Below, piece after piece: positions 1 to 16,914 of a stretch of DNA of 41,199 nt. Every line of letters begins with the position of its first letter. The stretch's first letter is position 1. Origin of the DNA: a virus; IMG/VR virus record IMGVR_UViG_3300036980_000356, positions 1 to 41,199 of that record; one strand, written 5' to 3'. The position numbers and the translations under genes were made by a program. Below the pieces are notes generated by a model. That model ran no database searches. It was given only the letters and a program-made list of their open reading frames with translations, and was not told the origin of the DNA.

Positions 1-52
1 TGGACAACTCCTTCAACGTCTTATCCCCCAAACTCTTCCTCGGCTCTGTCAT
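1..52 (-). CDS. Small protein, 3' part beyond left edge
   Basis: Only the first 17 codons are in the window (MTEPRKSLGDKTLKELS). The ATG overlaps the TGA of the upstream gene in an ATGA arrangement, and a GGGAGG Shine-Dalgarno sequence lies about 10 nt upstream inside that gene. This is the same translational coupling seen throughout this arm. The visible peptide is charged and likely helical; no family is recognisable. The start is well supported by position; the function is unknown. Confidence 0.5.
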   Translation of the reverse strand, partial: MTEPRKSLGDKTLKELS

Positions 53-276
53 GCGATGAGTACCTCCCATGGAGTTTGATCATTCCCAAAATTGGTCAGG
101 CAGTCGATCCTGTGGTTACACACATCGCACTTCCCAAAATCTGGCCCCACCATCCAAGAACGATTACACATCCGGCAAGAGAGCTTACACTCTGGCGGAC
201 CAGGATAACGGTAGCTGCGGTGGCTAGTGTAAGGCTCGTAATCATTTGATTGACAATGTGGGCAACTGAACATCAT
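49..276 (-). CDS. Cys-rich small protein with C-terminal CxxCxxRIDCL motif
   Basis: A 75-residue protein of unknown function. It starts with a zinc-ribbon-like CPHC (residues 5-8), then has C30, C34 and C37, then the arm-wide motif CDVCNHRIDCL at residues 50-60 followed by a short tail. A longer start at 303 is possible, but the ATG at 276 overlaps the preceding stop as ATGA and has GGTGAG just upstream, so I chose it. The many Cys pairs imply zinc or iron-sulfur binding. A role in binding host proteins or nucleic acid is only a guess. Confidence 0.7.
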   Translation of the reverse strand: MMFSCPHCQSNDYEPYTSHRSYRYPGPPECKLSCRMCNRSWMVGPDFGKCDVCNHRIDCLTNFGNDQTPWEVLIA

Positions 277-467
277 GCTCTCACCACTCTCTTCGGTAGG
301 CATTCGATTCGCATCTCACAAGTGGGGCAAGGATCTTCTCCCCTAGCGGTAACCCGTACCACCTCAAAGCATTTCCTACACCGCATAGGGTGACAATCCG
401 CAAAGCTACTCACGTAGTTGAATATCACGGTAGTCCCACAGTTACACACATACATACTCCGGGGCAT
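273..467 (-). CDS. Cys-rich small protein with C-terminal CxxCxxRIECL motif
   Basis: A 64-residue protein. It contains C8/C10, C25-H26, CRKC (30-33) and near its C-terminus the motif CPTCEMRIECL (47-57), followed by a basic tail. The ATG at 467 shares one base with the upstream stop (TGATG). No strong Shine-Dalgarno sequence precedes it, so reinitiation is likely; an internal ATG at residue 5 cannot be excluded. The paired cysteines suggest a small metal-bound fold. Function unknown; it belongs to the family defined by the motif, not by overall sequence. Confidence 0.65.
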   Translation of the reverse strand: MPRSMYVCNCGTTVIFNYVSSFADCHPMRCRKCFEVVRVTARGEDPCPTCEMRIECLPKRVVRA

Positions 468-655
468 CAGTCAAGTAGCTCATTGAAGATGAAGGTGACT
501 CTCTTGTTACGGTACTTGAAACAATCTTCACACACTAAGGTTCTCCAACTCCCATTGGGCCATTCGAGGACTCGCTTCTCCCCCGGCACATGTTTCCCAC
601 ACTTAGGTTGTCCTGTGGGTTTGCGAGTGAGGTGTACCATGATCCTCTTAATCAT
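467..655 (-). CDS. Small zinc-finger-like protein, unknown function
   Basis: A 62-residue basic protein with a CGKH (19-22) and a CEDC (42-45) pair, spaced as in many small zinc fingers. It lacks the CxxCxxRIxCL motif of its neighbours. GGAGG lies 7 nt before the ATG, and the start overlaps the upstream stop as ATGA. The basic N-terminus (MIKRIMVHLTRKP) and metal-site pattern fit a nucleic-acid or protein-binding accessory factor, but that is inference. Confidence 0.65.
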   Translation of the reverse strand: MIKRIMVHLTRKPTGQPKCGKHVPGEKRVLEWPNGSWRTLVCEDCFKYRNKRVTFIFNELLD

Positions 656-915
656 ATTCCACCCTCCATCAAGGATTGGGTAAAGTGTTTAAGCAATGCT
701 AGGTCTTGGGGTTTCAACTTAACAACATCTTCATCTTGCGCTGTACGTAATCCTAGGTCATTAGTATAGATCAACCACGTCTTACAGTACACACAGATAC
801 TAAAATCCCCGGGGGATGGGTTGCGTGCATCTATACCCGTAGCCGCGTCCAGTTTCTTCTTACAACATGGACATGCAACCATTGGTGTCTTATGTGTTTG
901 AATTTTATCCCGCAT
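652..915 (-). CDS. Phage small zinc-ribbon protein (CPxC...PGD...CxxC...LGLR)
   Basis: An 87-residue protein with two Cys pairs (C15/C18 and CVYC at 41-44), a DARNPSPGDFSIC segment and LGLR at 54-57 followed by a helical tail. I recognise this pattern from a widespread family of small hypothetical phage proteins, in which two CxxC pairs bracket a PSPGD segment. I chose the ATG at 915, 14 nt after the upstream stop and preceded by GGGG. An ATG at 999 would overlap the neighbour by 68 nt. It probably forms a zinc ribbon. The biological role of this family is not known to me. Confidence 0.7.
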   Translation of the reverse strand: MRDKIQTHKTPMVACPCCKKKLDAATGIDARNPSPGDFSICVYCKTWLIYTNDLGLRTAQDEDVVKLKPQDLALLKHFTQSLMEGGI

Positions 916-931
916 GTTGCCCCAAAATTTA

Positions 932-1114
932 TTACCACGTGAGGGATGGATAGCGTTCCTTCCAGTGAATGTTACACTTATCACACAACCACAAGGCACG
1001 ATTACACATAGGCTTCTCTGAGACGAAGCAACGTAGTTTTAAATCGATTGTGCACCGGTTGCAAAGATCGGTATCTATCCAGTCTCCACAACGTTGACAT
1101 CTAACTAATCCCAT
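932..1114 (-). CDS. Cys-rich zinc-finger-like protein
   Basis: A 60-residue protein with eight cysteines: CQRC (6-9), CNRC (18-21), C29, C37 and CDKC (44-47), with H50 following. This is enough for two treble-clef or ribbon-like metal sites. The ATG follows an AGGGGG sequence at a rather long spacing of about 11 nt. It opens a short run of genes after a 103-bp gap (1,115-1,217) in which I see no gene. Function unknown. Confidence 0.6.
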   Translation of the reverse strand: MGLVRCQRCGDWIDTDLCNRCTIDLKLRCFVSEKPMCNRALWLCDKCNIHWKERYPSLTW

Positions 1115-1217
1115 TGTGAATGTGACCCCCTAAAATTGGTCCGCATATATGAGAGAAGCTATCCCGCCCGTGGCCGCGCTGCTCGCGTGATTGTATAGTC
1201 GATTCGCCCGGGGGTAG

Positions 1218-1412
1218 CTACTGCAGTTGTTTGTCATCTTCCTCCTTCATCCACTCCATGAACTTGTCAAACCCCATTGAACGGATTCTTACCGCTTCCT
1301 CATGGGTGATGTTGGGGAAGAACATTGACTTACTCCCCCTACAGATCTGTTTACACTCCAACCAGAGTAGGGCAGCTGACGCTTCCTCAGGTGCTACTTT
1401 CTTATCGGTCAT
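1218..1412 (-). CDS. Small acidic/helical protein, unknown
   Basis: A 64-residue protein, largely helical by composition, with a charged C-terminus (KEEDDKQLQ). The start at 1412 is well supported: AGGAGG lies 6 nt upstream and the ATG overlaps the preceding stop as ATGA. A longer start at 1436 would run into the neighbour. It contains two cysteines (ECKQIC) but not the arm-wide motif. I do not recognise a family. Confidence 0.65.
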   Translation of the reverse strand: MTDKKVAPEEASAALLWLECKQICRGSKSMFFPNITHEEAVRIRSMGFDKFMEWMKEEDDKQLQ

Positions 1413-1648
1413 TGGATACCTCCTGAGACCATACATTCAATACGGTCATCACAGAAGTTACAGTAAGATGTATACTCCGTCCATTGCTTACCACACTCTA
1501 TGCAAAAGATGTGTACCATGTTCTCACATTTAGGTGAGAGGGTTTTGTTCAGTCTCATTGACTCACACCGTGGGCAGATCGTCACCACACGTCCCTTGTA
1601 TATCGTCCTGGTATTGGGCGGATGCTGTGGCGGTGGATTATGACTCAT
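1409..1648 (-). CDS. Cys-rich protein with C-terminal CxxCxxRIECM motif, possibly leaderless
   Basis: A 79-residue protein with CPRC (25-28), C41, CIEC (49-52) and the motif CNFCDDRIECM at 63-73. It is the first gene behind the promoter at 1,663-1,694. Only 14 nt separate the TATAAT box from the ATG, so the transcript would begin about 7 nt before the start codon. No Shine-Dalgarno sequence is present, unlike nearly every other gene here. This suggests leaderless or near-leaderless translation. The function is unknown; metal binding is likely. Confidence 0.7.
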   Translation of the reverse strand: MSHNPPPQHPPNTRTIYKGRVVTICPRCESMRLNKTLSPKCENMVHIFCIECGKQWTEYTSYCNFCDDRIECMVSGGIQ

Positions 1649-1662
1649 TATTTTTTAATTTA

Positions 1663-1694
1663 ATTATACGGGATCAATTGGATGAAAATAAAGG
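1663..1694 (-). promoter_or_regulatory. Promoter of the 1648-1 gene cluster
   Basis: Read on the minus strand, the block begins CCTTTATTTT, contains CCAATTGATCC and ends in TATAAT (1668-1663). The block at 9,077-9,108 has the same length and the same three elements, which makes this a shared promoter class rather than chance AT-richness. TTTATT may serve as a weak -35 at 17-18 nt. The alternative is a phage-specific activator site overlapping a -10 box. Confidence 0.6.
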
Positions 1695-1982
1695 TGGAAA
1701 ATAAATGCCTCCAAAAAAAGAAATCACACCTAGGTCCATGAACGGGTTAAAGGATGATTTAAACGATGCACAATAAAAGGGCACAACAGATAATATGATT
1801 AGTATTAATCATAGGTCCAGGTCCACCCGGCTGGGCTTAAATGAAAAGCTGCTCAGCACAATTAAAAGGATCGAGGGCACGGGTAGGATTTAAGGCTTAA
1901 GTCTCTACACAATTAAAGGGATGAAAGATAGAAGGTCTAGCACAATAAAGGCACCCTTGATCCGGCACATCATTGGGCAAAT
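1695..1982. repeat. Noncoding gap with repeated GCACAAT(T)AAAAGG words
   Basis: I see no gene here. The plus strand carries GCACAATAAAAGG (1,768-1,780, followed directly by GCAC), GCACAATTAAAAGGA (1,856-1,870), ACACAATTAAAGGG (1,907-1,920) and AGCACAATAAAGG (1,939-1,951). On the minus strand each reads CCTTTWATTGTG, similar to the 5' end of the two promoters. These may be iterated regulator sites or degenerate promoters. Confidence 0.5.
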
Positions 1983-2007
1983 AAAAAACCCCCCTTTCGG
2001 GGGGTTT
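1983..2007 (-). terminator. Intrinsic terminator of the 2022-2360 gene
   Basis: On the minus strand this is AAACCCCCC, GAAA loop, GGGGGGTTT, then a run of T (TTTTTTAT). The 9-bp stem and T tract lie just after the stop codon of the gene at 2,022-2,360. It is a textbook rho-independent terminator. Confidence 0.9.
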
Positions 2008-2021
2008 CGGTTAGGGGTTGG

Positions 2022-2360
2022 TTACTTGGTGTAGACGTAGTGACGTTTCCCATTGATGGTATCGATCTTCCATCCAGCGGGGAGGGACTTGATCTGTTGG
2101 GTGTGGTAGTTATACCCACGACGGTAATCAGGAACGATCTTCTGATCAGTCGCGCCCTGGATAACTCTCCCCACCGGTACCTGCTTATTACCCTTCGCAA
2201 GGGCTACGCGCAGGATGGTGTCCCGGAAAGTCCGGAACATGGTAAAGGCGGAAGTGGGATCCCCAGACTTGGACTTAGCGGGGGATTCGATTACGGCAGT
2301 GTACAAGGCTTCATCATCGGAAGCCAACTGCACTGCGTTAGGGGTTTGTTCTTTGGCCAT
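2022..2360 (-). CDS. RGYNY-family small protein (paralogue A)
   Basis: A 112-residue protein related over its whole length to the one at 3,770-4,261. Shared landmarks are ALYxxVIExP, SAFTxF, LRVALxKG, VGRxIQGA, YRRGYNYxTQQ, SLPxGW and NGK...YTK. The fold looks like several helices followed by a small beta hairpin, perhaps a winged helix; this is inferred from pattern alone. I chose the ATG at 2360 because GAGGAGG lies 8 nt upstream; an ATG at 2414 sits only 7 nt after the TATAAT box. The gene is monocistronic, with its own promoter and a strong terminator. Confidence 0.8.
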   Translation of the reverse strand: MAKEQTPNAVQLASDDEALYTAVIESPAKSKSGDPTSAFTMFRTFRDTILRVALAKGNKQVPVGRVIQGATDQKIVPDYRRGYNYHTQQIKSLPAGWKIDTINGKRHYVYTK

Positions 2361-2421
2361 GGTTACTACCTCCTCTTGGGTTGTGGGTTGTTTGTTTGGA
2401 ACAATCAATTTCATTATTTAT

Positions 2422-2451
2422 ATTATAACTGCCCTTAGGGGGTTTAATCAA
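2422..2451 (-). promoter_or_regulatory. Sigma-70-like promoter for 2022-2360
   Basis: On the minus strand TTGATT (2451-2446) and TATAAT (2427-2422) are separated by 18 nt, upstream of the AGGAGG and ATG of the next gene. The -10 is a perfect consensus and the -35 is a four-of-six match. The spacer differs from the CCAATTRATCC type at 1,663 and 9,077, so this may be a host-type promoter. Confidence 0.6.
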
Positions 2452-2931
2452 GATAAAAATAACGGGTCCATAAAAATAAGGCACGGCGCTTGGCACAAGA
2501 AGAGAAGTACAATAGCCAAGAGGGAAAGAACAATTAAAGGGCACATGATGAATTAACCCCAGAGAATTAAAAGGGATGATGGATGAATTAGGCACGCCTC
2601 TTTAAATGGATCTCAGGGCACGGTTGTTGGATGTAGGACTAGCGACCAGTTAACTGGATGAAGGGGTATAGGCGGGTTAGTGGCTGGGTGTCACAAGGGG
2701 AGGGTGTAAGTAGGTGACTGCTCAGGTATTAGAAGGGTGAAGGGGACGGGGCGGCGGGGGTTTATATCTGGCTGGGTGTTGGCAGACTAACTCAAAAGGA
2801 TAGGCCTGCTTACACTCCCTTGATGCGGTCCAGGGGTGGGGAGTAGTGTCAGTGTATACTACTCTAGGGGAGTGTAGGAAGGTTGATGTAGTGAAAGGAT
2901 GTTAATAAAAGGCTACGTCGATATCGAAAGA
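2452..2931. other. Noncoding region, G-rich on the plus strand
   Basis: No convincing gene in about 480 bp. The left half repeats the AATTAAAGG and GGCAC words (2,530-2,544, 2,563-2,575, 2,584-2,594). The right half (about 2,640-2,860) is strongly G-rich on the plus strand and includes four G runs at 2,735-2,760 able to form a quadruplex. An inverted AGTAGT/ACTACT pair lies near 2,840-2,865. An origin, a structured RNA or regulatory DNA are all possible; the sequence does not decide. Confidence 0.4.
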
Positions 2932-2950
2932 GGGTGTAACGATTACACCC
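2932..2950 (-). terminator. Terminator hairpin containing the stop codon of 2943-3305
   Basis: On the minus strand GGGTGTAA, TCG loop, TTACACCC forms a perfect 8-bp stem, followed by TCTTTCG. The TAA of the gene is inside the stem. The T tract is short, so termination may be partial, but the position directly at the gene end fits. Confidence 0.65.
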
Positions 2951-3305
2951 TTAACTTCTCTTCGAACTCCACTAAGGTTAAACCAGTAAGTCGTTTGAAG
3001 TTATCATCCAGATGGGTTGCAAACCGTTCAACTGGGTTGCCATTGTTATTGTCTGTATTCCACACCTGGTCTCCTTGGAGGTTATGGTGTGGAATATGTA
3101 ACTGCCTCCATACCACTATAGTCTGATTCTTCCTACCTCGAGGTACATACCATTCAACCTTAAGGTGGCAAGAGTAAACTCTCTCAATAATAATACATTC
3201 AATCCTACCCGGACAGGACATACAACAGGTGGGAGGTTGAATGATAACAGTATGTACAACATTGTGTCCAATTTCACCTTGACGGTTGAAGAGTACGCGG
3301 TTCAT
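2943..3305 (-). CDS. Protein with internal CxxCxxRIECI motif
   Basis: A 120-residue protein with the arm-wide motif in its first third (CMSCPGRIECI, 28-38), with C27 before it and C46 eight residues after it, giving a four-Cys set. The rest is basic and rich in H, N and W, with a helical C-terminus (DDNFKRLTGLTLVEFEEKL). GGAGGAGGTG precedes the ATG and lies inside the end of the upstream gene, which it overlaps by 32 nt. No known family is recognised. The motif in the middle of a longer protein shows that it behaves as a movable unit. Confidence 0.75.
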   Translation of the reverse strand: MNRVLFNRQGEIGHNVVHTVIIQPPTCCMSCPGRIECIIIERVYSCHLKVEWYVPRGRKNQTIVVWRQLHIPHHNLQGDQVWNTDNNNGNPVERFATHLDDNFKRLTGLTLVEFEEKLRV

Positions 3306-3714
3306 TTATCACCTCCTCCTGAGCGCCACCAGTAGCGCAAGGGTAGAAATGGTTATCCAGATACTCCTTGGAGATAGAGCAGGCGGAACAGTCTGGGAAG
3401 CTGTACTTAATAAGATCCTGTTCCCAGAGTTCATCTAAATCTCTAGCCGTGAGACCGGTTTCAATTCCAGGGATAGCATCCTCTTCCTTAATGGCTTCGA
3501 TATTAATCCGCTCGAGCCACCTCTCAGTGGTGTCGTTGCAGTAGCCACATGGACCTCCAATGGCATACAGGAAAGACATCATCGTAGTTTCAAGTCCTGC
3601 CTCAATCCATTGATGCCCTTTCTCCGTAGGTACATGTTGAACAGCCCTAGGAGGACTTACATCTAGAGTTAAACATTCAATACGATTAGGACAGACGTCG
3701 CAAGTTAGGCTCAT
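3274..3714 (-). CDS. Protein with N-terminal CxxCxxRIECL motif
   Basis: A 146-residue acidic protein that opens with MSLTCDVCPNRIECL, so the motif is at residues 5-15. Further Cys pairs are CGYC (about 56-59) and CSAC (about 109-112). The middle is predicted helical (TERWLERINIEAIKEEDA). GGAGG lies 4-5 nt before the ATG, just past the hairpin at 3,734-3,759. Its end overlaps the next gene. Family unknown; several metal-binding sites are plausible. Confidence 0.75.
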   Translation of the reverse strand: MSLTCDVCPNRIECLTLDVSPPRAVQHVPTEKGHQWIEAGLETTMMSFLYAIGGPCGYCNDTTERWLERINIEAIKEEDAIPGIETGLTARDLDELWEQDLIKYSFPDCSACSISKEYLDNHFYPCATGGAQEEVINEPRTLQPSR

Positions 3715-3733
3715 AGGCCCTCCTAGAAAAGTT

Positions 3734-3759
3734 GGGAGGGAGACCTAAGCCTCCCTCCC
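3734..3759 (-). terminator. Hairpin after 3770-4261, probable terminator
   Basis: A 9-bp GC-rich stem (GGGAGGGAG with CTCCCTCCC) and an 8-nt loop lie between the stop of the upstream gene and the Shine-Dalgarno of the next. On the minus strand it is followed by AACTTTTCT, a modest T tract. It may terminate or attenuate transcription in the middle of the operon. Confidence 0.6.
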
Positions 3760-3769
3760 GGGTTAAAGC

Positions 3770-4261
3770 TTACTTACCTTTCGGTAAGGACTTGGTGTAG
3801 CAACAGCAGTTCTTGCCATTGACGGACTGCACTACCCATCCGTCGGGCAAGGACTTCTTCTGCTGGGTGAAGTAATTGTAGCCACGGCGGTACCGCTGAT
3901 CCGCGGGAGTCACTTCCTTGAAGATGCCGAGGTCCACAGCGCCTTGGATCAAGCGACCCACCCGGACTTGCGAATGGCCTTTGGACAAAGCCACGCGCAG
4001 CATCTTGTGGGTGAAGTCCTTGAACTGGGTGAACGCGGAGTTCTCGTCCGTGCTCCGTTTGCCGGAACGCGGAGCCTCAATCACCTGCTCGTACAGAGCA
4101 GTGTCAGCATCTACGGAAGGAGAAGCAGCCAGAGCAGCAGCGGTCACAACGGGGGTCTTCAGTTCGGTAGCCATAGGTAATACCTCCTTGTCATCGGTGG
4201 AAAGGTTAACTGCATTAGAAGCCTTAGCCGCGGTGATGCCTTTGGTGGTCTCGTTAGCCAT
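3770..4261 (-). CDS. RGYNY-family small protein (paralogue B) with two candidate starts
   Basis: A 163-residue protein, paralogue of 2,022-2,360, with VGRLIQGA, RYRRGYNYFTQQ, SLPDGW and NGK in order. The ATG at 4261 has GGAGG 7 nt upstream. A second in-frame ATG at residue 30 (nt 4174) has its own GGAGG 8 nt upstream. The segment before it (NAVNLSTDDKEVL) resembles the N-terminus of paralogue A (NAVQLASDDEALY), so the long form appears to carry an Ala-rich insertion or duplication. Both 163- and 134-residue forms could be made. Function unknown; DNA binding through a winged-helix-like core is a guess. Confidence 0.8.
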   Translation of the reverse strand: MANETTKGITAAKASNAVNLSTDDKEVLPMATELKTPVVTAAALAASPSVDADTALYEQVIEAPRSGKRSTDENSAFTQFKDFTHKMLRVALSKGHSQVRVGRLIQGAVDLGIFKEVTPADQRYRRGYNYFTQQKKSLPDGWVVQSVNGKNCCCYTKSLPKGK

Positions 4262-4292
4262 GGTGTAGCCTCCTTGTTTTGGTTAGGGGTTA

Positions 4293-4631
4293 TTAGAAAG
4301 GCAATCCTTTGAGTAGACAAGCTACCCGCTGGTTGCAGGAGTCACACTTTGTGTAGTCCTTAAACCTAACGGAAGGGCACTTGATGGAGAGGCAGCGCTT
4401 ACCCTCCACTTCCCGGATCTGCCAATCACCGCCGCAAACGTGTCTTGAAATTTGGATAACATAGTTATACGCTTTGCGGTAACGGTCACTGGACGGGTAT
4501 GCCTGGAAGCCTGAGATGTGTTGGATGAGAAAAGTTGTGAGGTGGCTCAAAGGAATATCAAAGGGACCGTGTGTCGCCGCCGCGTCAAGAGTCTTTTTGA
4601 CGTAGACTCGAACCTCCGCGAAAAGACTCAT
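4293..4631 (-). CDS. RGYNY-like domain fused to C-terminal CxxCxxRVACL motif
   Basis: A 112-residue protein that links the two families of this arm. Residues about 1-80 match the RGYNY-type core (LTTFLIQHI, RYRKAYNYVIQ, GGDWQIREVEGK). Residues 96-106 are CDSCNQRVACL, with C85 eleven residues earlier. GGAGG lies 5 nt before the ATG, which overlaps the upstream stop as ATGA. The fusion argues that the Cys motif is an add-on to a separate folded domain. The role is unknown. Confidence 0.75.
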   Translation of the reverse strand: MSLFAEVRVYVKKTLDAAATHGPFDIPLSHLTTFLIQHISGFQAYPSSDRYRKAYNYVIQISRHVCGGDWQIREVEGKRCLSIKCPSVRFKDYTKCDSCNQRVACLLKGLPF

Positions 4632-4849
4632 CTAACCCTCCTCATCACTTTAACGCCTTTAACATTATGAGTTAACATCCAGCCTGGCGTCTTGTGGGCG
4701 AACCGATGTATCATATGGAACGCAACGTTAAGTCCTTTGCCAGGTAAGAGACGATCAATCCGAAGTGCGAGAGTGCCGGTGGAGATTTCTGTAATGCCCT
4801 CTCTGTCCAAAATTCCGAGTACTTCTTCAAACTTTAATCGTATGTCCAG
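4628..4849 (-). CDS. RGYNY-like small protein, probable CTG start
   Basis: A 73-residue basic protein whose core (LNVAFHMIHRFAHKTPGW, then HNVKGVKVMRR) aligns with the AYN...GW...NGK part of its neighbours, but which has no Cys motif. The reading frame is open back to a TGA at 4856-4854 with no ATG, GTG or TTG before residue 14. A full anti-Shine-Dalgarno match (AAAGGAGGTGAT) lies 6 nt before a CTG at 4849, so CTG is my choice. A TTG at 4810 would discard a plausible first helix and has no ribosome site. Confidence 0.6.
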   Translation of the reverse strand: MDIRLKFEEVLGILDREGITEISTGTLALRIDRLLPGKGLNVAFHMIHRFAHKTPGWMLTHNVKGVKVMRRVR

Positions 4850-4864
4850 ATGTCATCACCTCCT

Positions 4865-5194
4865 TTAGAATGGAAACGGATATCCCTTGATGGGACGTTT
4901 CAACTTATCCCAAGGGATGTCTTCAGTCTTGTTCATCTCTTTGAACTCTTCGTCGTGGCGGGGATTACCCAAATCGATCTGAGCATTCTCAGGATCGCAA
5001 TAGATAACCGCGGGAGCCATTGTACCTTGATTAGGCCAGAGACCGAAGAGGAAGGGGGGACAAGAGTACCAGAGACCGTAAGGGCAATACCACTTTGCCG
5101 GATCAGTGTAGTCATTGCTAAACATGCACTCGAAGATATCATCACAGGTCCGACATTCAAAGAAACGCATAGGTGGTCTTTCAGCTTCAGGCAT
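4865..5194 (-). CDS. Protein with N-terminal CxxCxxxxECM motif, paralogue of 6329-6604
   Basis: A 109-residue protein with a degenerate copy of the arm-wide motif near the N-terminus (CRTCDDIFECM, 14-24), where Arg is replaced by Ile. It is followed by CPY (37-39), a PPFLFGLWPNQGT block, a CDPEN segment and an acidic tail ending in YPFPF. The neighbour at 6,329-6,604 has the same order: motif, CPW, PPFVF, GLWPDKGT, YPFPV. GGAGG is 7 nt before the ATG. Function unknown. Confidence 0.75.
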   Translation of the reverse strand: MPEAERPPMRFFECRTCDDIFECMFSNDYTDPAKWYCPYGLWYSCPPFLFGLWPNQGTMAPAVIYCDPENAQIDLGNPRHDEEFKEMNKTEDIPWDKLKRPIKGYPFPF

Positions 5195-5530
5195 TTATAG
5201 TCCTCCCTTGTCCGCATCGATGATACAGTCGATCCGGTAGTCGCAGTCACCACAAGCGTCGGGTCTAAAGACGACCCAATCTTTATGGGGCTCATGCCAA
5301 CGTTTGCACTTAGCGACAAGGGGTTTTACTACTCTCTTAACGATGTTGTATGCAGCACGGGTGTCGTAGTTAAAGTTCTTCTCGACTACCTTGACCAACC
5401 GAAAGATCCCAATGGGCTGTCCTGCATGTGCGATCACTTGTAGGAGTAGTCGCTCCACCAACTCAACTGCCCGATTGTGGTCTCGGTCCGATGCAGCTAC
5501 CTCCTCTGTACGGCCTGCCTCTAACACCAT
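5195..5530 (-). CDS. Helical RxAYN-domain protein with C-terminal CxxCxxRIDCI motif
   Basis: A 111-residue protein. A helical N-terminal part (VELVERLLLQVI) leads to TRAAYNIVKRV (57-67), then DWVVFRP and the motif CGDCDYRIDCI (93-103), with C75 eighteen residues before it. The layout is that of 4,293-4,631 and 5,534-5,866. GGAGG lies 8 nt before the ATG. The stop is immediately followed by the next ATG. Unknown function; the duplicated architecture in adjacent genes implies local gene amplification. Confidence 0.75.
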   Translation of the reverse strand: MVLEAGRTEEVAASDRDHNRAVELVERLLLQVIAHAGQPIGIFRLVKVVEKNFNYDTRAAYNIVKRVVKPLVAKCKRWHEPHKDWVVFRPDACGDCDYRIDCIIDADKGGL

Positions 5531-5533
5531 AGC

Positions 5534-5866
5534 TCACCCCTCCGCCCAGATGGGCATTCTGGTTAAACAGTCAAGTCGCTTCTCACACACGTCGCAAGCT
5601 TCTGGATGGTACTCAAGCTGGCGTCGGCTACCCTTACCATGAACTCCAACTAAGGAAAAGCAATTCTTCCAAGCGGAGCATTGACGGAGACTGGAGATGA
5701 CCGTGGACAATAAGTTCCAAGCATTACGTCCATTGATCGGGTCAGGAGAACGTGAGACTATCTCCTGGACAAGATCTGCGTGACTTACAATTTGCGGGAG
5801 CTTTCCATCCACCATCATTCTCACGACTTGCTGGACGGTTGGCAGTAAAGGGTTTTGAAGGTTCAT
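5534..5866 (-). CDS. Helical RNAWN-domain protein with C-terminal CxxCxxRLDCL motif
   Basis: A 110-residue protein with helices at about 10-40, GRNAWNLLSTVISSL (46-60), a short beta region and CDVCEKRLDCL (91-101). C63 and C69 lie upstream as possible extra ligands. It has the same plan as its neighbour at 5,195-5,530 but is diverged. The ATG overlaps the upstream stop as ATGA, with GGAGG 7 nt before it. No database family comes to mind. Confidence 0.75.
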   Translation of the reverse strand: MNLQNPLLPTVQQVVRMMVDGKLPQIVSHADLVQEIVSRSPDPINGRNAWNLLSTVISSLRQCSAWKNCFSLVGVHGKGSRRQLEYHPEACDVCEKRLDCLTRMPIWAEG

Positions 5867-6318
5867 AGGGCTTCCTCCATGCTAAGGGTTACAACTTCGG
5901 CCCGCTGGATAAGCAGGCACTCAATGCGCTTGTCACACGTATCACATCCACTTTCCATTCGATGAATGTAACCCTCAACGACGACATAGGTCTTGCTGCA
6001 ATCTCGGCAGCGGTCTTTACACGACTCATAACTACGAGAGTCACCTCGACTGAGAAGAAACCAGTTCTCCGTTTTACAGTCCGGACAGATCCATGCAAGC
6101 TCTGCAGGCCAATTGTCTGGACTCGACTTTGCGGCACGAGCTTGACTGAAGTCGGCACTGAGAACGAAGTCGCCGTGTTGAACCATCCCCTTACACTTCT
6201 CTCTCGCCATCGGTAACTTGGAGGCACCTACAGTTACGGGAGCAATCACCGGAACGTGGAACCTGAACTTGAGATAGCGAGGAGGAGTGACGGGGGCATC
6301 AAAAGATTTCTTAGGCAT
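5863..6318 (-). CDS. Zinc-ribbon protein with C-terminal CxxCxxRIECL motif
   Basis: A 151-residue protein. The first 70 residues are Pro/Val/Ala-rich and basic. CPDC (78-81), C100, C104 and CRDC (104-107) then form one or two ribbon-like metal sites, and CDTCDKRIECL follows at 125-135. AAGGAGTGAGGT immediately precedes the ATG. An overlapping frame of similar length on the same strand (5,889-6,227) has no ribosome site and was rejected. Function unknown. Confidence 0.75.
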   Translation of the reverse strand: MPKKSFDAPVTPPRYLKFRFHVPVIAPVTVGASKLPMAREKCKGMVQHGDFVLSADFSQARAAKSSPDNWPAELAWICPDCKTENWFLLSRGDSRSYESCKDRCRDCSKTYVVVEGYIHRMESGCDTCDKRIECLLIQRAEVVTLSMEEAL

Positions 6319-6328
6319 ACCTCACTCC

Positions 6329-6604
6329 TTAAACCGGAAATGGATAGGGATAACACCAGTCAATTATTGGTGTCCCCTTGTCTGGCCAAAGACCAGGACT
6401 ATATACGCAAGTCGTATCTTCTGAGACTTGGCAGGTTAGTACCTGATCTGTTTCAATCAGATCAACCATAAAGCGTTGACCGTACAGAGGCTTGAATACG
6501 AAAGGTGGGATGAACTTGAAACGAAGCCAAGGGCAAATATCACGGTGATCATTAACGAGACAGTCGATGCGACCCTCGCACCACTCACAAAGGTGTTTAC
6601 GCAT
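6329..6604 (-). CDS. Protein with N-terminal CxxCxxRIDCL motif, paralogue of 4865-5194
   Basis: A 91-residue protein that opens MRKHLCEWCEGRIDCL (motif 6-16), with ICPW (23-26) giving a fourth Cys eight residues on. It then has PPFVF, C58, C66, GLWPDKGT and YPFPV. The shared order with 4,865-5,194 shows a duplicated gene. GGAGG lies 4-5 nt before the ATG, after the hairpin at 6,617-6,636. It is the first gene downstream of the AAA+ ATPase and is probably co-transcribed with it. Function unknown. Confidence 0.75.
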   Translation of the reverse strand: MRKHLCEWCEGRIDCLVNDHRDICPWLRFKFIPPFVFKPLYGQRFMVDLIETDQVLTCQVSEDTTCVYSPGLWPDKGTPIIDWCYPYPFPV

Positions 6605-6616
6605 AGTACCTCCATG

Positions 6617-6636
6617 GGGGGAGCCGAAGCTCCCCC
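6617..6636 (-). other. UUCG-capped intergenic hairpin
   Basis: On the minus strand GGGGGAGC, TTCG, GCTCCCCC gives an 8-bp stem with the extra-stable UUCG tetraloop. It sits between the ATPase stop and the next ribosome binding site. No T tract follows, so RNA stabilisation or processing is more likely than termination. Confidence 0.6.
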
Positions 6637-6648
6637 TTGAGGGTTAAC

Positions 6649-7734
6649 TTAATTATCGTAGACGCGCTTACGAATCTCGATCATAGTCGGCCCATCGCAG
6701 ATGTTCAGGGCGACTTCCTTGGGGAGGGTCTTGAAGAAGACATAAGTCAGTTCGTCATTCGGATGTGCCAGGACGAACTTCCGAACGTGGACGGCTTGAT
6801 CCTTCTTAATGGTACCTCCAAGTTCATGGAGGCGGGAAGCCAAGCGGCTGTAGGTGAGGTTCATCAAGTCCGGAGCTTTAGCCACCTTCAAGAACTTCTC
6901 CTGGCTGACTTTCCCATTGAGGATGTCATCCGGGAGGATGATGTTCTGTTGGGTCTTCAGACAGGTGATGAAGGAACTCCGCATGGAAGGTCCGATCACC
7001 GCATCGAGGCGGAGCATCGCATCTTCCTCGAAGAAGGGAATGTGCTCCCGTACCAGACTCTGTAAAGCCTGGTTGGCAAAGTCTGCCGTACGGGGACTGA
7101 TACCTTCTCCATCGGTACCAATGCTCTCCGGGTATAGCTTCAGGAAAGCAACCCACTCAGCATTCCATTGACGAGTGAGTATGAAGTTGGTAAAGACTTT
7201 GAAGTCCAAGCGGACATACAAAGTTTGGATCCTTTCCATCTGGGCATAGTCCAGCCCACGCGTTGCGTACTTCTCAGACTTGGCCGGGTTGGAAGTGAGG
7301 ATGACCCGAACCTTCGGATGGAGATCTAAAGCGCCGACTTTGTAGTCCAGGAAGACGGGCATAAGGCTTTGGAGGATCTGAGCCGGAAGTCTGTTATAGT
7401 CATCCAGCAACAGTATGACTTGTTCATACTGTCCAGACTCCGCAGCCTCATTGGACTCCACAGCCCAGTAAGGAGCCATGTAGACAGTACGCCCATCGAA
7501 GATCTTAGGCATACCTGCCAAGTCACCGGGCTCAGTGATAACGGCTGCCGTGGGAACGAAGATGACCTTAATCTTCGGGTCTTCGGACATGTCGCGGATG
7601 ATGGTGGTCTTTCCAATCCCAGCACCACCCTGAAGGTCTGCAGTTACCCGACGGGGGCCTTCTTTCAACATAAGGTGAATCAGTCGACGGGCCTGCTCCA
7701 GGTTAACTTCTACACGACGTTCTTCTACGGCCAT
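6649..7734 (-). CDS. MoxR-type AAA+ ATPase
   Basis: A 361-residue ATPase. The Walker A motif is GGAGIGKT (36-43), Walker B is VILLLDD (106-112) and the sensor 1 segment is LTSNP (146-150). A DLAGMPK segment lies between the Walker motifs, as in MoxR/CobS-like enzymes. These ATPases act on a partner with a VWA domain, and the gene just upstream (7,748-9,043) is exactly such a partner, 13 bp away. GGAGGT precedes the ATG. The target of the pair is not visible in the sequence; remodelling or activation of a host or phage complex is inferred from the family. Confidence 0.9.
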   Translation of the reverse strand: MAVEERRVEVNLEQARRLIHLMLKEGPRRVTADLQGGAGIGKTTIIRDMSEDPKIKVIFVPTAAVITEPGDLAGMPKIFDGRTVYMAPYWAVESNEAAESGQYEQVILLLDDYNRLPAQILQSLMPVFLDYKVGALDLHPKVRVILTSNPAKSEKYATRGLDYAQMERIQTLYVRLDFKVFTNFILTRQWNAEWVAFLKLYPESIGTDGEGISPRTADFANQALQSLVREHIPFFEEDAMLRLDAVIGPSMRSSFITCLKTQQNIILPDDILNGKVSQEKFLKVAKAPDLMNLTYSRLASRLHELGGTIKKDQAVHVRKFVLAHPNDELTYVFFKTLPKEVALNICDGPTMIEIRKRVYDN

Positions 7735-7747
7735 GTGGTACCTCCTC

Positions 7748-9043
7748 TTAGTTAGTCACGCGCATGCGTAACATTGTAACCCAATCGGGCATGGTTGCAT
7801 TGGAGTCTTCCGTGAGTACCAGAAGCGTGGACGTAAACCCTTCAGGCATTGCACCGGACAGATCGAAGATGTAACCGTCCGATAAGATGATGGCCTGAGT
7901 CACTTCAGGGAATTCTTCCTTGCAATCCAGTAGCGCTTGCCGGATCATCGTACCTCCACCGCCATGCGCCTTAGGGGGAATGTTTTGATACACATAGGGC
8001 TTAGCTGCAGGTCCTGCATCGAACTCGTGGACCCAAATCATATACCCCATGAGCTTCAACTTGTCAATGATCGAGAAGCAAGCCCCGATCTCCTTAGCAG
8101 ACATCGAACCGGATGTATCGACGAAGACGTGGATCTCACCCATGTATTCGTGCTTAGCCCCAGGAGGAGCACCGTAGCGTCTTGAAGAGTGACGTTTACA
8201 AAACCGCCAGTCCTCATTCTGTTCCGTTGCTTGGGCATAGTTGATAAACTGATCGCGCCAATCAACTTCAGCTCCGACCTTGTAGAGATCTCGTAAGGCA
8301 CCATGCGGAGCAGTACCGGCCATCTTGGATGCACCTTCGAAGAGCCGGCGAGAAAGCCCATCCGCTTCTGCCTCAGAGACTTCTAACTCCCAGTAGTGAC
8401 CGGGTGCTCCTCTTACTCCAGTGCCTCCGCAATGGGGACAACGGCCAACACCTTGACCTTGATCATCCCCTTCTTGCCCTTCTTGATCTCCTTGGCCACC
8501 TCCCGCACCCTTATCTCCCCCAGACCCTGAACCTTGTCCACTACCCTTTGCGTGGCCTGAACCAGAGCCGTTACAGTAGGGACATTGAAAGGCCTCTTTA
8601 GGGATATGCCGGAGATACCACTCGAAGGTTTTATTCTTCTCGAGTTTGTATTTTTCCGGGAGGAGTAAATTTTCGGGGGGCTTAAGGTGACAGGTATCAC
8701 TCAGGAAGGAATTGGTTGCAAAGTCCATGCCGATGTTTTCATACTCATGGCCTTGCCCGGACTTACCTGCTCTCCAAGGATGCTTGAACAGGAAGTGTAT
8801 AATCTCATGGAGCAGGATGTACTTCTGGTCATACTCCGACTCCGTGAAGAACCTCTCGGGGTTGAGGATGATCGTTAACGACTCCCGGATAATCATCCCC
8901 GCCAATGGAAGCGGTCTGCCATCTGAGGTCTTGGATTCGTAAGACCACTTACAGCAAGCTAGGACGTGACCGAAGAAAGGTTGTTGTCCTAACAAACCCA
9001 TGACCAACTTCCGACGCTTCTTCTCTAAGGCGTCTCGATGCAT
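7748..9043 (-). CDS. Metallopeptidase-like/VWA protein (DUF2201 type), MoxR partner
   Basis: A 431-residue protein. The N-terminal part has HEIIH (79-83) and a following GMDFATN segment, as in the putative metallopeptidase domain PF13203. The C-terminal part is a VWA-like domain (PF09967) with the metal-site residues DTSGS (309-313), GGGGT (361-365) and SDG (388-390). Between them lies a DnaJ-like cysteine pair arrangement, CPYCNGSGSG (154-163) and CPHCGGTG (202-209), split by about 40 residues of Gly/Gln/Asp-rich linker. AGGAGGT precedes the ATG and the 9,077-9,108 promoter lies directly upstream. It is expected to work with the adjacent ATPase. Confidence 0.9.
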   Translation of the reverse strand: MHRDALEKKRRKLVMGLLGQQPFFGHVLACCKWSYESKTSDGRPLPLAGMIIRESLTIILNPERFFTESEYDQKYILLHEIIHFLFKHPWRAGKSGQGHEYENIGMDFATNSFLSDTCHLKPPENLLLPEKYKLEKNKTFEWYLRHIPKEAFQCPYCNGSGSGHAKGSGQGSGSGGDKGAGGGQGDQEGQEGDDQGQGVGRCPHCGGTGVRGAPGHYWELEVSEAEADGLSRRLFEGASKMAGTAPHGALRDLYKVGAEVDWRDQFINYAQATEQNEDWRFCKRHSSRRYGAPPGAKHEYMGEIHVFVDTSGSMSAKEIGACFSIIDKLKLMGYMIWVHEFDAGPAAKPYVYQNIPPKAHGGGGTMIRQALLDCKEEFPEVTQAIILSDGYIFDLSGAMPEGFTSTLLVLTEDSNATMPDWVTMLRMRVTN

Positions 9044-9076
9044 CGTACCTCCTTTTATGATTAATTTCTTATTATT

Positions 9077-9108
9077 ATTATAATGGATTAATTGGGGACA
9101 ATAAAAGG
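9077..9108 (-). promoter_or_regulatory. Promoter of the VWA-MoxR operon
   Basis: The minus strand begins CCTTTTATTGT, contains CCAATTAATCC and ends in TATAAT (9082-9077), 33 nt before the ATG at 9043. Length and elements match 1,663-1,694 exactly. It would start the operon of the VWA protein, the ATPase and most Cys-motif genes. Confidence 0.65.
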
Positions 9109-9133
9109 TAGAATTTTATTGCCCCCAAAAAAT

Positions 9134-9697
9134 TTAGTTGGAATCCTTCTGCAGAACCACTTCGGCTTCTCCTACCAGATCTGCAAAGGACTTATCCACC
9201 TTAGTCGCGTACTTCGCCACCCCAGGGTGTGAAGACTTTAAGAGCCTGAAGGGGTTGTGGAAGGAGGTGAAGTGGTGGTAAGCGACACACCGCTCATCCA
9301 CCAGCATCTCCTTTACTTCGCACATCTTGGGATCCCGGTTGTACAAAAACGTTACAATCAGGATCGCGTGCCACGGGTGTATTCTATTACGCTTCCAACC
9401 CATGGCGGTAATTAGTAATGTAAAGTCCCGAAGGTTGGTAACGTCCTTGAGGTTTAAGACATTGAGGAGTTCCTCATAGTCATCACGCCAAGTGCTGGTA
9501 GCTTTTAATCCAGCCTCTTCGGGAGTAAGATGTATAACTGGATGTGCCCAAGTAACAGGAGCGCACGACACTTCTGTCGCTACATCGTTCAGTATGTCAT
9601 CGAACAATGAGCTATGGAGCACACACTCCGGACACTTGTCAATCTTGTCCGGTGTCTCAAATACGTCCCCACAATTAACACAGGTGAGGAATGGCAT
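9134..9697 (-). CDS. Protein with N-terminal zinc ribbon, unknown
   Basis: A 187-residue protein. CVNC (6-9) and CPEC (22-25) form a short N-terminal zinc ribbon. The remainder looks mainly helical, with MGWKRNRIHPWHAILIVTF near the middle and a KSFADLVGEAEVVL tail. GGAGG lies 8 nt before the ATG. It precedes the 9,077 promoter, so it probably ends the upstream transcription unit. No known family was recognised. The 94 bp before it (9,698-9,791) hold no supported gene. Confidence 0.75.
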   Translation of the reverse strand: MPFLTCVNCGDVFETPDKIDKCPECVLHSSLFDDILNDVATEVSCAPVTWAHPVIHLTPEEAGLKATSTWRDDYEELLNVLNLKDVTNLRDFTLLITAMGWKRNRIHPWHAILIVTFLYNRDPKMCEVKEMLVDERCVAYHHFTSFHNPFRLLKSSHPGVAKYATKVDKSFADLVGEAEVVLQKDSN

Positions 9698-9791
9698 TGT
9701 ACTTCCCTCCTTGAAAAGGTAGTGTAACTTCTAGCTATGGCAAAAGGTTTCAACCATGATTTGCTGTTCCTCGATTCCCAAAAGACTAGGG

Positions 9792-9977
9792 TTAAAGTTT
9801 GACCTTACTTTGATCGGTCCAATTACCAAGCCGCATACACTCACCGCACACCTCAATTGCGAATGATAGGGAGACCCGGTAAGGACAAATGGCTTCGGAA
9901 AATCCTAGGGCGAGGCAGTCTATTCTTTCAGGACAGCACTCGCACCTAGGAGTATCGGCCGTACAGATCTTGGCCAA
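9792..9977 (-). CDS. Small Cys-rich protein with CxxCxxRIDCL motif, TTG start
   Basis: A 61-residue protein. The motif CECCPERIDCL (12-22) is followed by ICPY (30-33), giving CX2CX5CX9C, and then by CGEC (43-46). The spacing matches 6,329-6,604. An in-frame TAG lies one codon before the TTG at 9977, so the start must be there or later; the TTG follows the previous stop by 8 nt, and a weak TAGG sequence is the only ribosome site. Function unknown; metal or Fe-S binding is likely. Confidence 0.6.
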   Translation of the reverse strand: MAKICTADTPRCECCPERIDCLALGFSEAICPYRVSLSFAIEVCGECMRLGNWTDQSKVKL

Positions 9978-9985
9978 GGCCTAGC

Positions 9986-10393
9986 CTACTCAGCCGGCGG
10001 GGTGAACTTCAGGCTGTTGTTACGCCCAGGGCCTTTCTTGATCAACTCCCAACCGGCTGGAAGGGTTAAGCCCCCTTTCTTGATGCCGTCGGAGAAGCAA
10101 GCATTGGCCTGATGCCGGCGAGAGGAGATCCAGTTGTCGATCACCTCTTCGGATCCCTCAGTGGGGATGGGTCCGAAGACCGTTCCGACTTTGATGGAGG
10201 CGGAGATGATCTGGGCAACGTTGATGGTGAAGGTTTGCTTGTGGGCCAGAACACCCAAGGCCCGGATAACAAACGCGTAAAACTTCTGACGAGCGGACTC
10301 AGGATCTACTCCGCGAGTCCTGGACGAACCCTCCATGAGGTGTTCGTAAATCTCCTCGTCTGCCTTTGCCAACTGTCCAGCGGTTTTAGTCAT
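9986..10393 (-). CDS. Distant RGYNY-family member
   Basis: A 135-residue protein. ADEEIYEHLMEGS, LRxx-type helices, AQIISASI and LPAGWELIKKGPGRN follow the same order as in the paralogues at 2,022 and 3,770, but the YRRGYNY segment is replaced by SSRRHQANACF and is longer. I place the start at 10393, where AGGAGGAAGGTAGC precedes the ATG; the open frame extends to 10468 inside the neighbour. The relation is weaker than for the other members. Function unknown. Confidence 0.65.
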   Translation of the reverse strand: MTKTAGQLAKADEEIYEHLMEGSSRTRGVDPESARQKFYAFVIRALGVLAHKQTFTINVAQIISASIKVGTVFGPIPTEGSEEVIDNWISSRRHQANACFSDGIKKGGLTLPAGWELIKKGPGRNNSLKFTPPAE

Positions 10394-10394
10394 G

Positions 10395-11138
10395 CTACCT
10401 TCCTCCTTGTTTGTTGTAGTTGAGCCATTGAAAGTTAACTCCCCTGTCTTGTCGGTAGCCGCGCTCACTCCAATTGATTGTGTCGCGCATCTGTTCTAAG
10501 ATACGGGGGTTAGTTGTAAACCAGACATCGGGCTTTATGGATCTGTAGTAACGAGAAGCTTCGTGCCACTTACCACCTCGAGAGTATACTTCAATAACGG
10601 TTTGTCCTTTATGATCGAAGTGGTTAATCCGGGCCTCGAAGACACAGTGAAGGTCCCGAGCGTAATGATACTTCTCTTCTCGGAACAACTTCTTGATATC
10701 CAATGGAAGGCAATCAATCCGGTGTATGCAAACGACGCACTGCTTGGGATCGAAGCTCGCCTTCCAAAGGTCTTTGTACTCTTTGTTCTGGCGGACGAGG
10801 ACAGCTCTCACTTCTTGGGCATCGATCACAGCATTCCATTCATTCATGCAAGCTCTCCAACCCGCCATGAAGTCGCTGATGCAGTTACTGATTGACTCAC
10901 GCGACCGTTGATCGAGCTCGTAGGGAAGGCAGAGCTGAATGGCCCAGTCTCCGACACTATCCCAAGAACACCTACCAGGATCCTTGCTGCGCCACTTCTC
11001 GGGATTCATAATGGAGGGACTCTCAATAACCTTCACGCGGTTCCGACATACTGGAAGCTCGCGGGACAAACGCTCGGCTACTCGTTCGAGGAGCTCTTTG
11101 TTTTCGGACTGCATGATAGAAAAGTGATACGCAAACAC
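10395..11138 (-). CDS. 247-residue protein with central CxxCxxRIDCL motif
   Basis: The largest carrier of the arm-wide motif. A helical N-terminal half (ENKELLERVAERLSREL, SCxSDFMAGWRACMNEWNAV-like) leads to CVVCIHRIDCL at 134-144. A basic/aromatic C-terminal half follows (HYARDLHCVFEAR, SRYYRSIKPDVWF). The start is GTG at 11138 with AAAGGAGG 5 nt upstream. A four-run G-quadruplex sequence and a hairpin lie just before that ribosome site. It may represent two domains joined by the motif. Function unknown. Confidence 0.75.
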   Translation of the reverse strand: MFAYHFSIMQSENKELLERVAERLSRELPVCRNRVKVIESPSIMNPEKWRSKDPGRCSWDSVGDWAIQLCLPYELDQRSRESISNCISDFMAGWRACMNEWNAVIDAQEVRAVLVRQNKEYKDLWKASFDPKQCVVCIHRIDCLPLDIKKLFREEKYHYARDLHCVFEARINHFDHKGQTVIEVYSRGGKWHEASRYYRSIKPDVWFTTNPRILEQMRDTINWSERGYRQDRGVNFQWLNYNKQGGR

Positions 11139-11153
11139 TTATGCCTCCTTTAA

Positions 11154-11188
11154 CCCACCCACCCACCCAGTCCCCTATGTCAGGGACT
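11154..11188 (-). promoter_or_regulatory. Hairpin plus G-quadruplex motif before a ribosome binding site
   Basis: On the minus strand AGTCCC...GGGACT (11,188-11,169) is followed at once by GGGTGGGTGGGTGGG (11,168-11,154), then TTAA and AGGAGG. The quadruplex sequence has four G3 runs with 1-nt loops, a very stable class. In the mRNA it would sit 4 nt before the Shine-Dalgarno of the 247-residue gene and could regulate its translation. Confidence 0.65.
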
Positions 11189-11375
11189 ACTCTTCGGTTT
11201 CAACGTAGTACCGACACTTGATGGAAGTCACTCCATCAGGCACCGAACCCTGGGGCAGATAATGCTTCTCCTGAAACGACGTTGGAGCATCTCCACCCGT
11301 GGCGATTGCCTTGTCAAAGCTTTTGGTGGACCCTTGGAACTCTAGGGTCTTCTCAGCCAGGACTTTGATTGCCAA
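11187..11375 (-). CDS. Small protein, TTG start
   Basis: A 62-residue protein with mixed composition (KVLAEKTLEFQGSTKSF at the start, IKCRYYVETEE at the end), probably a small beta-containing fold. The TTG at 11375 has AAGGAGGTGATG nine nt upstream; the ATG inside that sequence opens a frame of only 9 codons. It overlaps the end of the upstream gene by 34 nt. No family recognised. Confidence 0.6.
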   Translation of the reverse strand: MAIKVLAEKTLEFQGSTKSFDKAIATGGDAPTSFQEKHYLPQGSVPDGVTSIKCRYYVETEE

Positions 11376-15965: not shown

Positions 15966-16151
15966 ATGAAATTCGTGACTGGATGGATCAAAGAGTTTAT
16001 ATGTAAGAATGATCCTACACACATTGGTGCCTTTCTTGCGGACGTGTTTGAACTAGCAGCTTTGGCGGTGATGCTTGGAATGGTTGTGAGGCTTTATATC
16101 AAAATAAGAACTTTGCATAAGAAAATGAAGGAGTACCACCCCGATGCTTAA
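15966..16151 (+). CDS. Single-pass membrane protein 1 of 5
   Basis: A 61-residue protein with one membrane segment (about 26-45, FELAALAVMLGMVVRLYIKI) and a short basic C-terminal helix (RTLHKKMKEY). It follows the previous stop directly, with AGAGGAC as ribosome site, and overlaps the next gene by 8 nt. It is first in a run of five similar proteins. The basic tail predicts a cytoplasmic C-terminus. A holin-like or membrane-remodelling role is possible. Confidence 0.75.
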   Translation: MKFVTGWIKEFICKNDPTHIGAFLADVFELAALAVMLGMVVRLYIKIRTLHKKMKEYHPDA

Positions 16152-16464: not shown

Positions 16465-16466
16465 AA

Positions 16467-16691
16467 ATGTTTGAAGTGGTTATAAATCATTTGATGTCCC
16501 ACCAAGAAATAAAAGTATGGATGCTTGTACCCTTTGTGTTCCTTAGTTTTGCAAAGCTGGGAATAATCTTTTGGTTGGTGGTAAGAATTATAAAGTTCCA
16601 AGATCGTATTGACCGTCTAGATGAAACCCGTAGGACGTTTGCAGAAGAGGCCGTGAAACAAATCCTTGATAAATTGGATATCCCAAAGTAG
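16467..16691 (+). CDS. Single-pass membrane protein 3 of 5
   Basis: A 74-residue protein. A membrane segment (about 17-42, MLVPFVFLSFAKLGIIFWLV) is followed by KFQDRIDRLDETRRTFAEEA and VKQILDKLD. The KFQD[R/K][I/V]D phrase right after the membrane is shared with protein 4 and the end resembles protein 5 (ILNKLDD), showing real paralogy. The ribosome site GGGAG lies 9 nt upstream. Confidence 0.8.
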   Translation: MFEVVINHLMSHQEIKVWMLVPFVFLSFAKLGIIFWLVVRIIKFQDRIDRLDETRRTFAEEAVKQILDKLDIPK

Positions 16692-16911: not shown

Positions 16912-16914
16912 TAG

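Follow-up and report, generated by a model that had tools for sequence, protein, structure and literature searches.

Why should a virus attach the same short cysteine motif to one small protein after another? The question is raised by a linear IMG/VR virus record of 41,199 bases (IMGVR_UViG_3300036980_000356; the whole stretch is called the window here), in one gene arm of which an original prediction, made by reading the sequence, had placed the pattern C-x2-C-x2-R-[I/V/L]-x-C-[L/I/M] in 13 otherwise different small proteins. The comparisons reported here give good support to a movable tag with a common cofactor, probably a metal, that recurs in ten other uncultured viral records; a metal-binding docking tag, held by a common partner, is the reading that we consider best, with about an even chance of being correct.

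Occurrence of the motif in the window and in other viruses

The window holds 12 exact copies of C-x2-C-x2-R-[IVL]-x-C and one degenerate copy (CRTCDDIFECM, 5123-5155). All of them lie in one gene arm and on the minus strand, and each of the 13 positions given by the original prediction proved correct. The DNA form of the pattern, scanned over the 41,199 bases, matched 12 times in reverse and 0 times in the forward direction, with 0 matches for a reversed-pattern control. A position-specific scoring matrix built from tags that include the 13 window ones recovered exactly these 13 at scores of 12 or more, with no fourteenth site, in agreement with the claim that the motif is absent elsewhere in the window. 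By our own count on the list of open reading frames (ORFs), 13 of about 24 genes between nucleotides 49 and 11138 are tagged, and over the whole minus-strand arm (to about nucleotide 14800) the share is about one-third, as had been proposed. No near DNA match to the first 12 kb of the window was found among cultured phages.

Chance does not generate such a series. Dinucleotide shuffles of nucleotides 1-11200 (n=300) yielded a mean of 0.05 motifs and a maximum of 1, and residue shuffles within the 13 ORFs (n=2000) a mean of 0.03 and a maximum of 2, compared to 12 in the real sequence; the shuffled control that the original prediction had proposed as a challenge to itself therefore fell far short of the observed number. 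The arginine of the motif is encoded by all six of its codons and the cysteines by both of theirs, indicating selection on the protein rather than on the DNA. We thus rejected a DNA-level repeat on the basis of the degenerate codons, and chance on the basis of the shuffles and of the recurrence in ten other records; we found no point in favour of either, and together they retain practically no probability.

Recurrence was established by scanning degenerate DNA forms of the tag over viral contigs and then counting tags in the matching records with a loose pattern or with tag hidden Markov models (HMMs), whose E-values include the sequences from which the profiles were built. These searches covered whole records; the portion read as sequence was 40 of 62.8 kb for G046, 15 of 31.6 kb for G039 and a part of the group-2 contigs. 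Group 1 comprises the window and records G009 (IMGVR_UViG_3300028043_000002), G010 (IMGVR_UViG_3300028043_000001), G034 (3300005077_000747), G046 (3300036980_000377) and G039 (3300000316_000004), which are linked to the window or to each other through MoxR, VWA, ribonucleotide reductase (RNR), helicase, DNA polymerase and other genes at about 30-69% identity. In-register three-cysteine tags number 13 in the window, 11 in G009, 7 in G010, 37 in G034, 9 in G046 (40 kb read) and 6 in G039 (15 kb read), giving 83 after four of 87 initial rows that were out of register had been left out, and within each record they lie on a single strand, except for one spurious row.

Group 2 (G035, G037, G038, G042 and G043) carries the variant CxxCxxRFxC[FYW]T, with 35, 15, 50, 30 and 32 tag-HMM matches, respectively, at E≤0.02, and its contigs are interlinked by 11-38 homologous ORF pairs per contig pair. 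Similarity between the two groups is weak, consisting of MoxR and VWA proteins at 23-26%, a DNA-polymerase-like piece and a few small proteins. A mechanical count over the stretches read assigned a tag to 38 of 118 ORFs in G038, 32 of 123 in G035 and 32 of 177 in G034. The tagged viruses appear to be phages. Searches of IMG/VR with VWA, RNR and DNA polymerase did not find a further close member of the clade (for RNR, among the matches listed), and the RNR search returned at least four distant RNR loci (22-30%). The best cultured relatives among the matches listed reach 26% for DNA polymerase and 32-33% for RNR, and all matching records stay below 60%.

We then compared these numbers with cellular genomes and cultured phages. 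While tagged viral records contain 5-50 matches to the tag profiles, the group-1 HMM (E≤0.02) matched at most once in each of 17 bacterial or archaeal genomes (eight with one match, nine with none), which had been chosen since each held one strict pattern match. Both tag HMMs gave 0 matches at E≤0.005 in 119 genomes from the phylum of Bacillus dakarensis (presumably Bacillota), one of them shared with the 17, in a scan whose E-values refer to larger genomes and which included no positive control, so that its empty result says little by itself. A strict pattern scan of genome contigs found 17 single matches in seemingly unrelated ORFs and no dense cluster, with a pattern so strict that, by a count made by eye, it would recover only some 8 of the 31 tags from its own design set. 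Seven cultured large phages (78-498 kb) contained 0-2 tag-pattern matches each, and the reversed pattern matched 0-1 times per record. When five tagged proteins were searched against 50,697 phage records, four had no match, and a tagged protein with an L7/L12 domain had three weak ones (E=0.07-0.09) over that domain. With 0-1 matches per cellular genome, 0-2 per cultured phage and 5-50 per tagged viral record, the motif clusters by virus, which is the opposite of the random scatter over unrelated genomes that had been named as grounds for abandoning the idea. No comparable tag system was found among the cultured phages or the bacterial genomes examined. A search of the open-access literature for the motif strings and for shared cysteine tags in phage proteins found no published account (remaining results were irrelevant by title), which agrees, as weak evidence of absence, with the statement that this is not a described phage system.

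Proteins that carry the tag

The position of the tag in its carriers varies. It is C-terminal in seven, N-terminal in four and internal in two of the window proteins, the same counts as originally reported; the 83 group-1 rows comprise 19 N-terminal, 25 internal and 39 C-terminal tags, and the 109 group-2 rows 13, 60 and 36, respectively. Its presence varies as well: when homologous proteins from different contigs were paired after masking of the tags and removal of overlaps, 7 group-1 pairs had both members tagged and 2 only one, and the corresponding numbers for group 2 are 55 and 13. The proposal of a movable tag with a common cofactor or partner has therefore fared unevenly, in that the cofactor is well supported by this presence and absence, by the fourth cysteine described below and by the clustering per virus, while a common partner is only suggested, by the uniform non-cysteine residues.

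The carriers are mostly as different as had been claimed, with the qualification that a zinc-ribbon body is common to four of the 13 and that another three can be aligned with a winged-helix-like family, in one case with BLAST support. The four ribbon-like proteins, with the arrangement CPxC ... C ... CxxC ... CxxCxxRIxCL and a C-terminal tag, have 84 residues (49-303, tag 97-129), 64 residues (273-467, tag 297-329), 79 residues (1409-1648, tag 1430-1462) and 151 residues (5863-6318, tag 5914-5946), the last with tagged homologues in two related viruses; these and all other carriers in the window are encoded on the minus strand. Across group 1, 46 of the 83 in-register carriers are ribbon-like (CxxC ... 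CxxC) by a cysteine-count criterion, which describes the body of the carrier and not the tag. An alignment of 42 such carriers (A7), few of which have a Pfam match, yielded a profile whose matches in the PDB are generic zinc fingers and ribbons.

The 112-residue product of 4293-4631 (C-terminal tag 4314-4346) is a member of a winged-helix-like family, and BLAST supports untagged homologues of it in the window and in G034. The body of its AlphaFold model is confident, and Foldseek matches of that model to winged helices are weak (E≥0.1, template-modelling score about 0.45). An untagged paralogue is encoded at 3770-4261 on the same strand, and the products of 2022-2414 and 9986-10468 also align. 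Two further C-terminally tagged proteins, of 111 residues (5195-5530, tag 5222-5254) and 110 residues (5534-5866, tag 5564-5596), are winged-helix-like by alignment only, at 23% identity to the 4293-4631 product in a multiple alignment and with no BLAST match.

The six remaining window carriers have no Pfam match at the curated cut-off. The tag is internal in a 120-residue protein (2943-3305, tag 3192-3224, with an additional cysteine 9 residues downstream) and in a 247-residue protein (10395-11138, tag 10707-10739), and N-terminal in proteins of 146 residues (3274-3714, tag 3670-3702), 109 residues (4865-5194, bearing the degenerate copy), 91 residues (6329-6604, tag 6557-6589, additional cysteine 9 downstream) and 61 residues (9792-9977, tag 9912-9944, additional cysteines 10 downstream and 7 upstream). 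In group 2, three proteins carry the tag after a ribosomal L7/L12 C-terminal domain (PF00542; L194:212-655, L197:6933-7379 and L199:19378-19734). The carriers thus range over zinc-ribbon, winged-helix-like and L7/L12 bodies and over folds of unknown kind. PADLOC models of anti-phage defence gave 0 matches to ten window proteins, eight of them tagged. A role of the tagged proteins as phage regulators, also part of the original prediction, is only suggested: ribbons and winged helices (the latter from weak Foldseek matches) resemble folds associated with DNA or RNA polymerase, while other bodies are unknown or of the L7/L12 type.

In group 2, L205:8195-9625 in G043 encodes a tagged protein of 477 residues that is apparently interrupted by a LAGLIDADG intein (PF14528, 3.7e-8; intein splicing domain below cut-off), and its N-terminus resembles, by eye, the tagged group-2 proteins of 124-139 residues at L199:14444 and L197:4602.

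A putative metal site and the conserved non-cysteine residues

The tag itself contributes three cysteines in the spacing CX2CX5C, and the search for a fourth showed that it is usually available from the carrier. At least five cysteines lie upstream of the tag in 40 of the 46 ribbon carriers, one more than a ribbon needs, so that with the three of the tag there are eight, enough for two four-cysteine sites. Among the 37 non-ribbon group-1 tags, a cysteine occurs 5-10 residues downstream in 22, within 30 residues upstream in 6 and at another place within 30 residues downstream in 5. Group-2 tags have a cysteine 2-13 residues upstream in 77 of 109 cases, compared to about 32% expected from the background of 2.9% per residue. 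In an alignment of three tagged winged-helix-like proteins (two of them placed by alignment alone) with five untagged relatives, the tagged members have a cysteine just before a tryptophan (VCGGDW, KCKRW and QCSAW), where the untagged five read L-P-x-G-W. Such a pattern would be expected if the carrier completed a metal site, and it points to putative metal binding.

The closest published arrangement is that of the WhiB-like (Wbl) proteins. In one account (PMC6282962), the cysteines of WhiB1 are C9, C37, C40 and C46, i.e. C-x(n)-C-x2-C-x5-C, and the motif definition places a G[VI]WGG turn after the last cysteine. The tag shares CX2CX5C (C37/C40/C46 of WhiB1) together with a distal cysteine, and the DNA patterns of the tag also retrieved WhiB proteins, of which three out of three tested match PF02467 (1e-13 to 1e-20) and others were recognized by eye; the retrieved proteins resemble the tag as well in an arginine before and a leucine after the last cysteine, features that the search patterns favoured. 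Recruitment of a WhiB-like kind, in which an iron-sulphur site binds a sigma factor or RNA polymerase and may sense redox state or nitric oxide, would fit these likenesses and the many ribbon-like or winged-helix-like bodies. However, PF02467 was not found in the 13 tagged window proteins or the 42 ribbon-tag members, G[VI]WGG occurs in 0 of 87 group-1 and 0 of 109 group-2 rows, and an L7/L12-type body is no pointer to transcription. Compared with the four-cysteine layout of Wbl proteins, the further cysteine lies upstream in many tags, downstream in many group-1 tags and nowhere nearby in some, and unlike Wbl domains the tag stands at 6-50 places per contig, with its fourth cysteine on either side and with no Pfam match. 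For want of a PF02467 match and of the G[VI]WGG turn, we rejected membership of the Wbl family and keep the resemblance only; recruitment of this kind seems very improbable.

Similar half-sites exist in other families. The PD-(D/E)XK superfamily has known iron-sulphur members (Cas4, AddB and Dna2), and the tag patterns also retrieved a DUF2800/PDDEXK_1 protein of L058 whose CEWCLHRFDC falls into the score range of true tags. Such nucleases share a C-terminal half-site of the CX2CX5C type with the tag, but in them it is confined to one nuclease fold; none of the 13 tagged window proteins gave a PDDEXK match, while the L058 control matched PDDEXK_1 and DUF2800, and membership of this superfamily was rejected on that basis. 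Zinc ribbons and knuckles are likewise cysteine-rich metal sites on small proteins, and many carriers are ribbon-like, yet the tag comes in addition to the ribbon, does not consist of two CxxC knuckles and has conserved residues that are not ligands. The WhiB-like arrangement, together with the retrieval of WhiB and PD-(D/E)XK proteins by the tag patterns, tilts the choice of metal, so that by analogy a [4Fe-4S] cluster would be slightly ahead of zinc.

These non-ligand residues differ between the two groups and are uniform within each. When position 8 was left free in the search, 81 of 88 group-1 motifs had I, V or L there, and the 125 group-2 motifs had F in 118 cases and Y in the other 7; the 109 group-2 rows used above had been selected with Phe required at this position. 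Position 11 is L in 63 of 88 group-1 motifs and aromatic in 110 of 125 group-2 motifs, of which 125 motifs 121 have T or S at position 12. In group 1, the x positions are no more similar within a genome than between genomes.

A rival account would treat the element as a structural staple, a zinc or iron-sulphur mini-domain that stabilises small proteins, has spread as genes were duplicated and domains shuffled, and binds no shared receptor. It gains from the 46 of 83 group-1 tags on ribbon-like, cysteine-rich bodies, as a general expansion of such folds would give, from the free shifting of the fourth cysteine and from the use of CX2CX5C as a metal half-site in other families too. The arginine and the hydrophobic positions are nevertheless kept across unrelated bodies in both groups, which exceeds what metal ligation needs, and the signature of the whole set differs between groups. 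One non-cysteine signature per lineage, different between lineages, is what a common receptor would be expected to impose, and we accordingly favour a metal-binding docking tag; the staple is the less probable of the two, although it would be no surprise if it held.

As a docking tag, the three cysteines of CX2CX5C and one from the carrier or its flanks would form a four-cysteine metal site, more likely [4Fe-4S] than zinc, and the metal would rigidify a small element on which the conserved residues (Arg, the hydrophobic one and Leu, or Phe and Thr) are displayed. A large share of the small proteins of early type ("early" being our reading of these genes) would have been given this element by the virus, and all of them would bind one common partner, perhaps a machine of the host or of the phage, for instance RNA polymerase. 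Familiar parallels are the sorting and cargo tags LPXTG and PEP-CTERM, in which one short motif occurs on many otherwise unrelated proteins of a genome; unlike these, the cysteine tag sits at either terminus or internally, has three invariant cysteines and is viral.

Several observations weigh against such a docking site. A fourth cysteine within 30 residues is missing in 4 of the 37 non-ribbon group-1 tags, and in the 3274-3714 product the closest other cysteines are 42-45 residues downstream. AlphaFold gives residues 88-112 of the 4293-4631 product, which include the tag, a predicted local distance difference test (pLDDT) score below 50, and in a model of a ribbon-tag protein (mean 67) the tag scores about 70-77 with a short helix, from which a metal site is not established. 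The iron-sulphur scaffold domain NifU_N was sought in the 11 tagged records and found in none. A group-wide signature could also persist through descent from one ancestral tag, although the x positions give no sign of similarity within genomes.

A neighbouring MoxR-VWA pair and the possible wider meaning of the tag

Within the tag cluster of the window, on the same strand, lie a MoxR-like AAA+ ATPase (6649-7734; Walker A GGAGIGKT, Pfam AAA below cut-off) and a DUF2201_N protein (7748-9043) that combines a metallopeptidase-like domain with HExxH (HEIIH) and a VWA-type MIDAS (DTSGS), two candidates for the partner. In G034 and G042 the pair is likewise located within the cluster, in G009 at the edge of it, and both groups have its HExxH, MIDAS and Walker A motifs. 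G034 has two such pairs (L189:2264-5216 and L191:8803-11092), one 57-63% identical to that of the window and the other about 40%, and in the second pair of this record a tagged ribbon gene (L189:3721-3978) stands between MoxR and VWA. DUF2201_N was found in 6 of 11 tagged records (one below the family cut-off) compared to 2 of 30 untagged viral records, controls that were not length-matched and were mostly much shorter.

The tag might accordingly mark clients into which the phage MoxR-VWA/metallopeptidase pair loads metal, or which it unfolds or clips. Related pairs lend this some plausibility: in the respective accounts, NorQD is a MoxR-VWA pair that inserts metal (PMC13036017), pairs of this type insert metals (PMC9976466) and RavA-ViaA is linked to iron-sulphur assembly (PMC3893208). 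On the other side, phages AR9, BpSp, G, AD45-P1, SBP1, MTATph1 and Va1 have a related VWA gene, with an annotated AAA or MoxR neighbour in five of the seven, but 0-2 tag-pattern matches, and DUF2201_N was not found in five tagged records, including the 116-kb G010, all of which may be fragments. The pair as an obligatory partner is weakened by these cultured phages with a related VWA gene and no tag cluster. It stays a weak candidate, and a tag for its clients or for degradation appears unlikely, if less so than a WhiB-like device.

Beyond the tag cluster, the window encodes a large ribonucleotide reductase (18053-20212) that is 69% identical to that of G009 and 32-33% to the best cultured-phage matches listed, five consecutive small plus-strand ORFs (15966-17151) that by eye resemble one-helix membrane proteins, one with a G009 homologue, and long, partly mutually similar, tail-gene-like proteins of up to 1713 residues (20761-41195), with similar proteins repeated in G009 and G010. 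G010 also has a 4977-residue open reading frame (L056:1505-16438) that runs off the end of its 116-kb contig.

At its widest, and with more doubt than confidence, the picture would be of two large uncultured virus lineages that run a virus-wide addressing system, in which a movable four-cysteine metal tag (probably iron-sulphur), present on about one-third to one-half of the genes in the arms counted, would bring unrelated effectors, L7/L12-like proteins among them, to a single redox- or metal-gated hub controlling early proteins. If this is true, small viral proteins would be organised through a common cofactor and receptor rather than singly, and the tag would predict which small genes act together. 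With up to about 50 unrelated proteins per virus, one motif and one partner would offer a handle on dozens of functionally uncharacterised proteins; should the metal prove to be an iron-sulphur cluster, the infection programme of these viruses would be tied to iron, redox state or nitric oxide.

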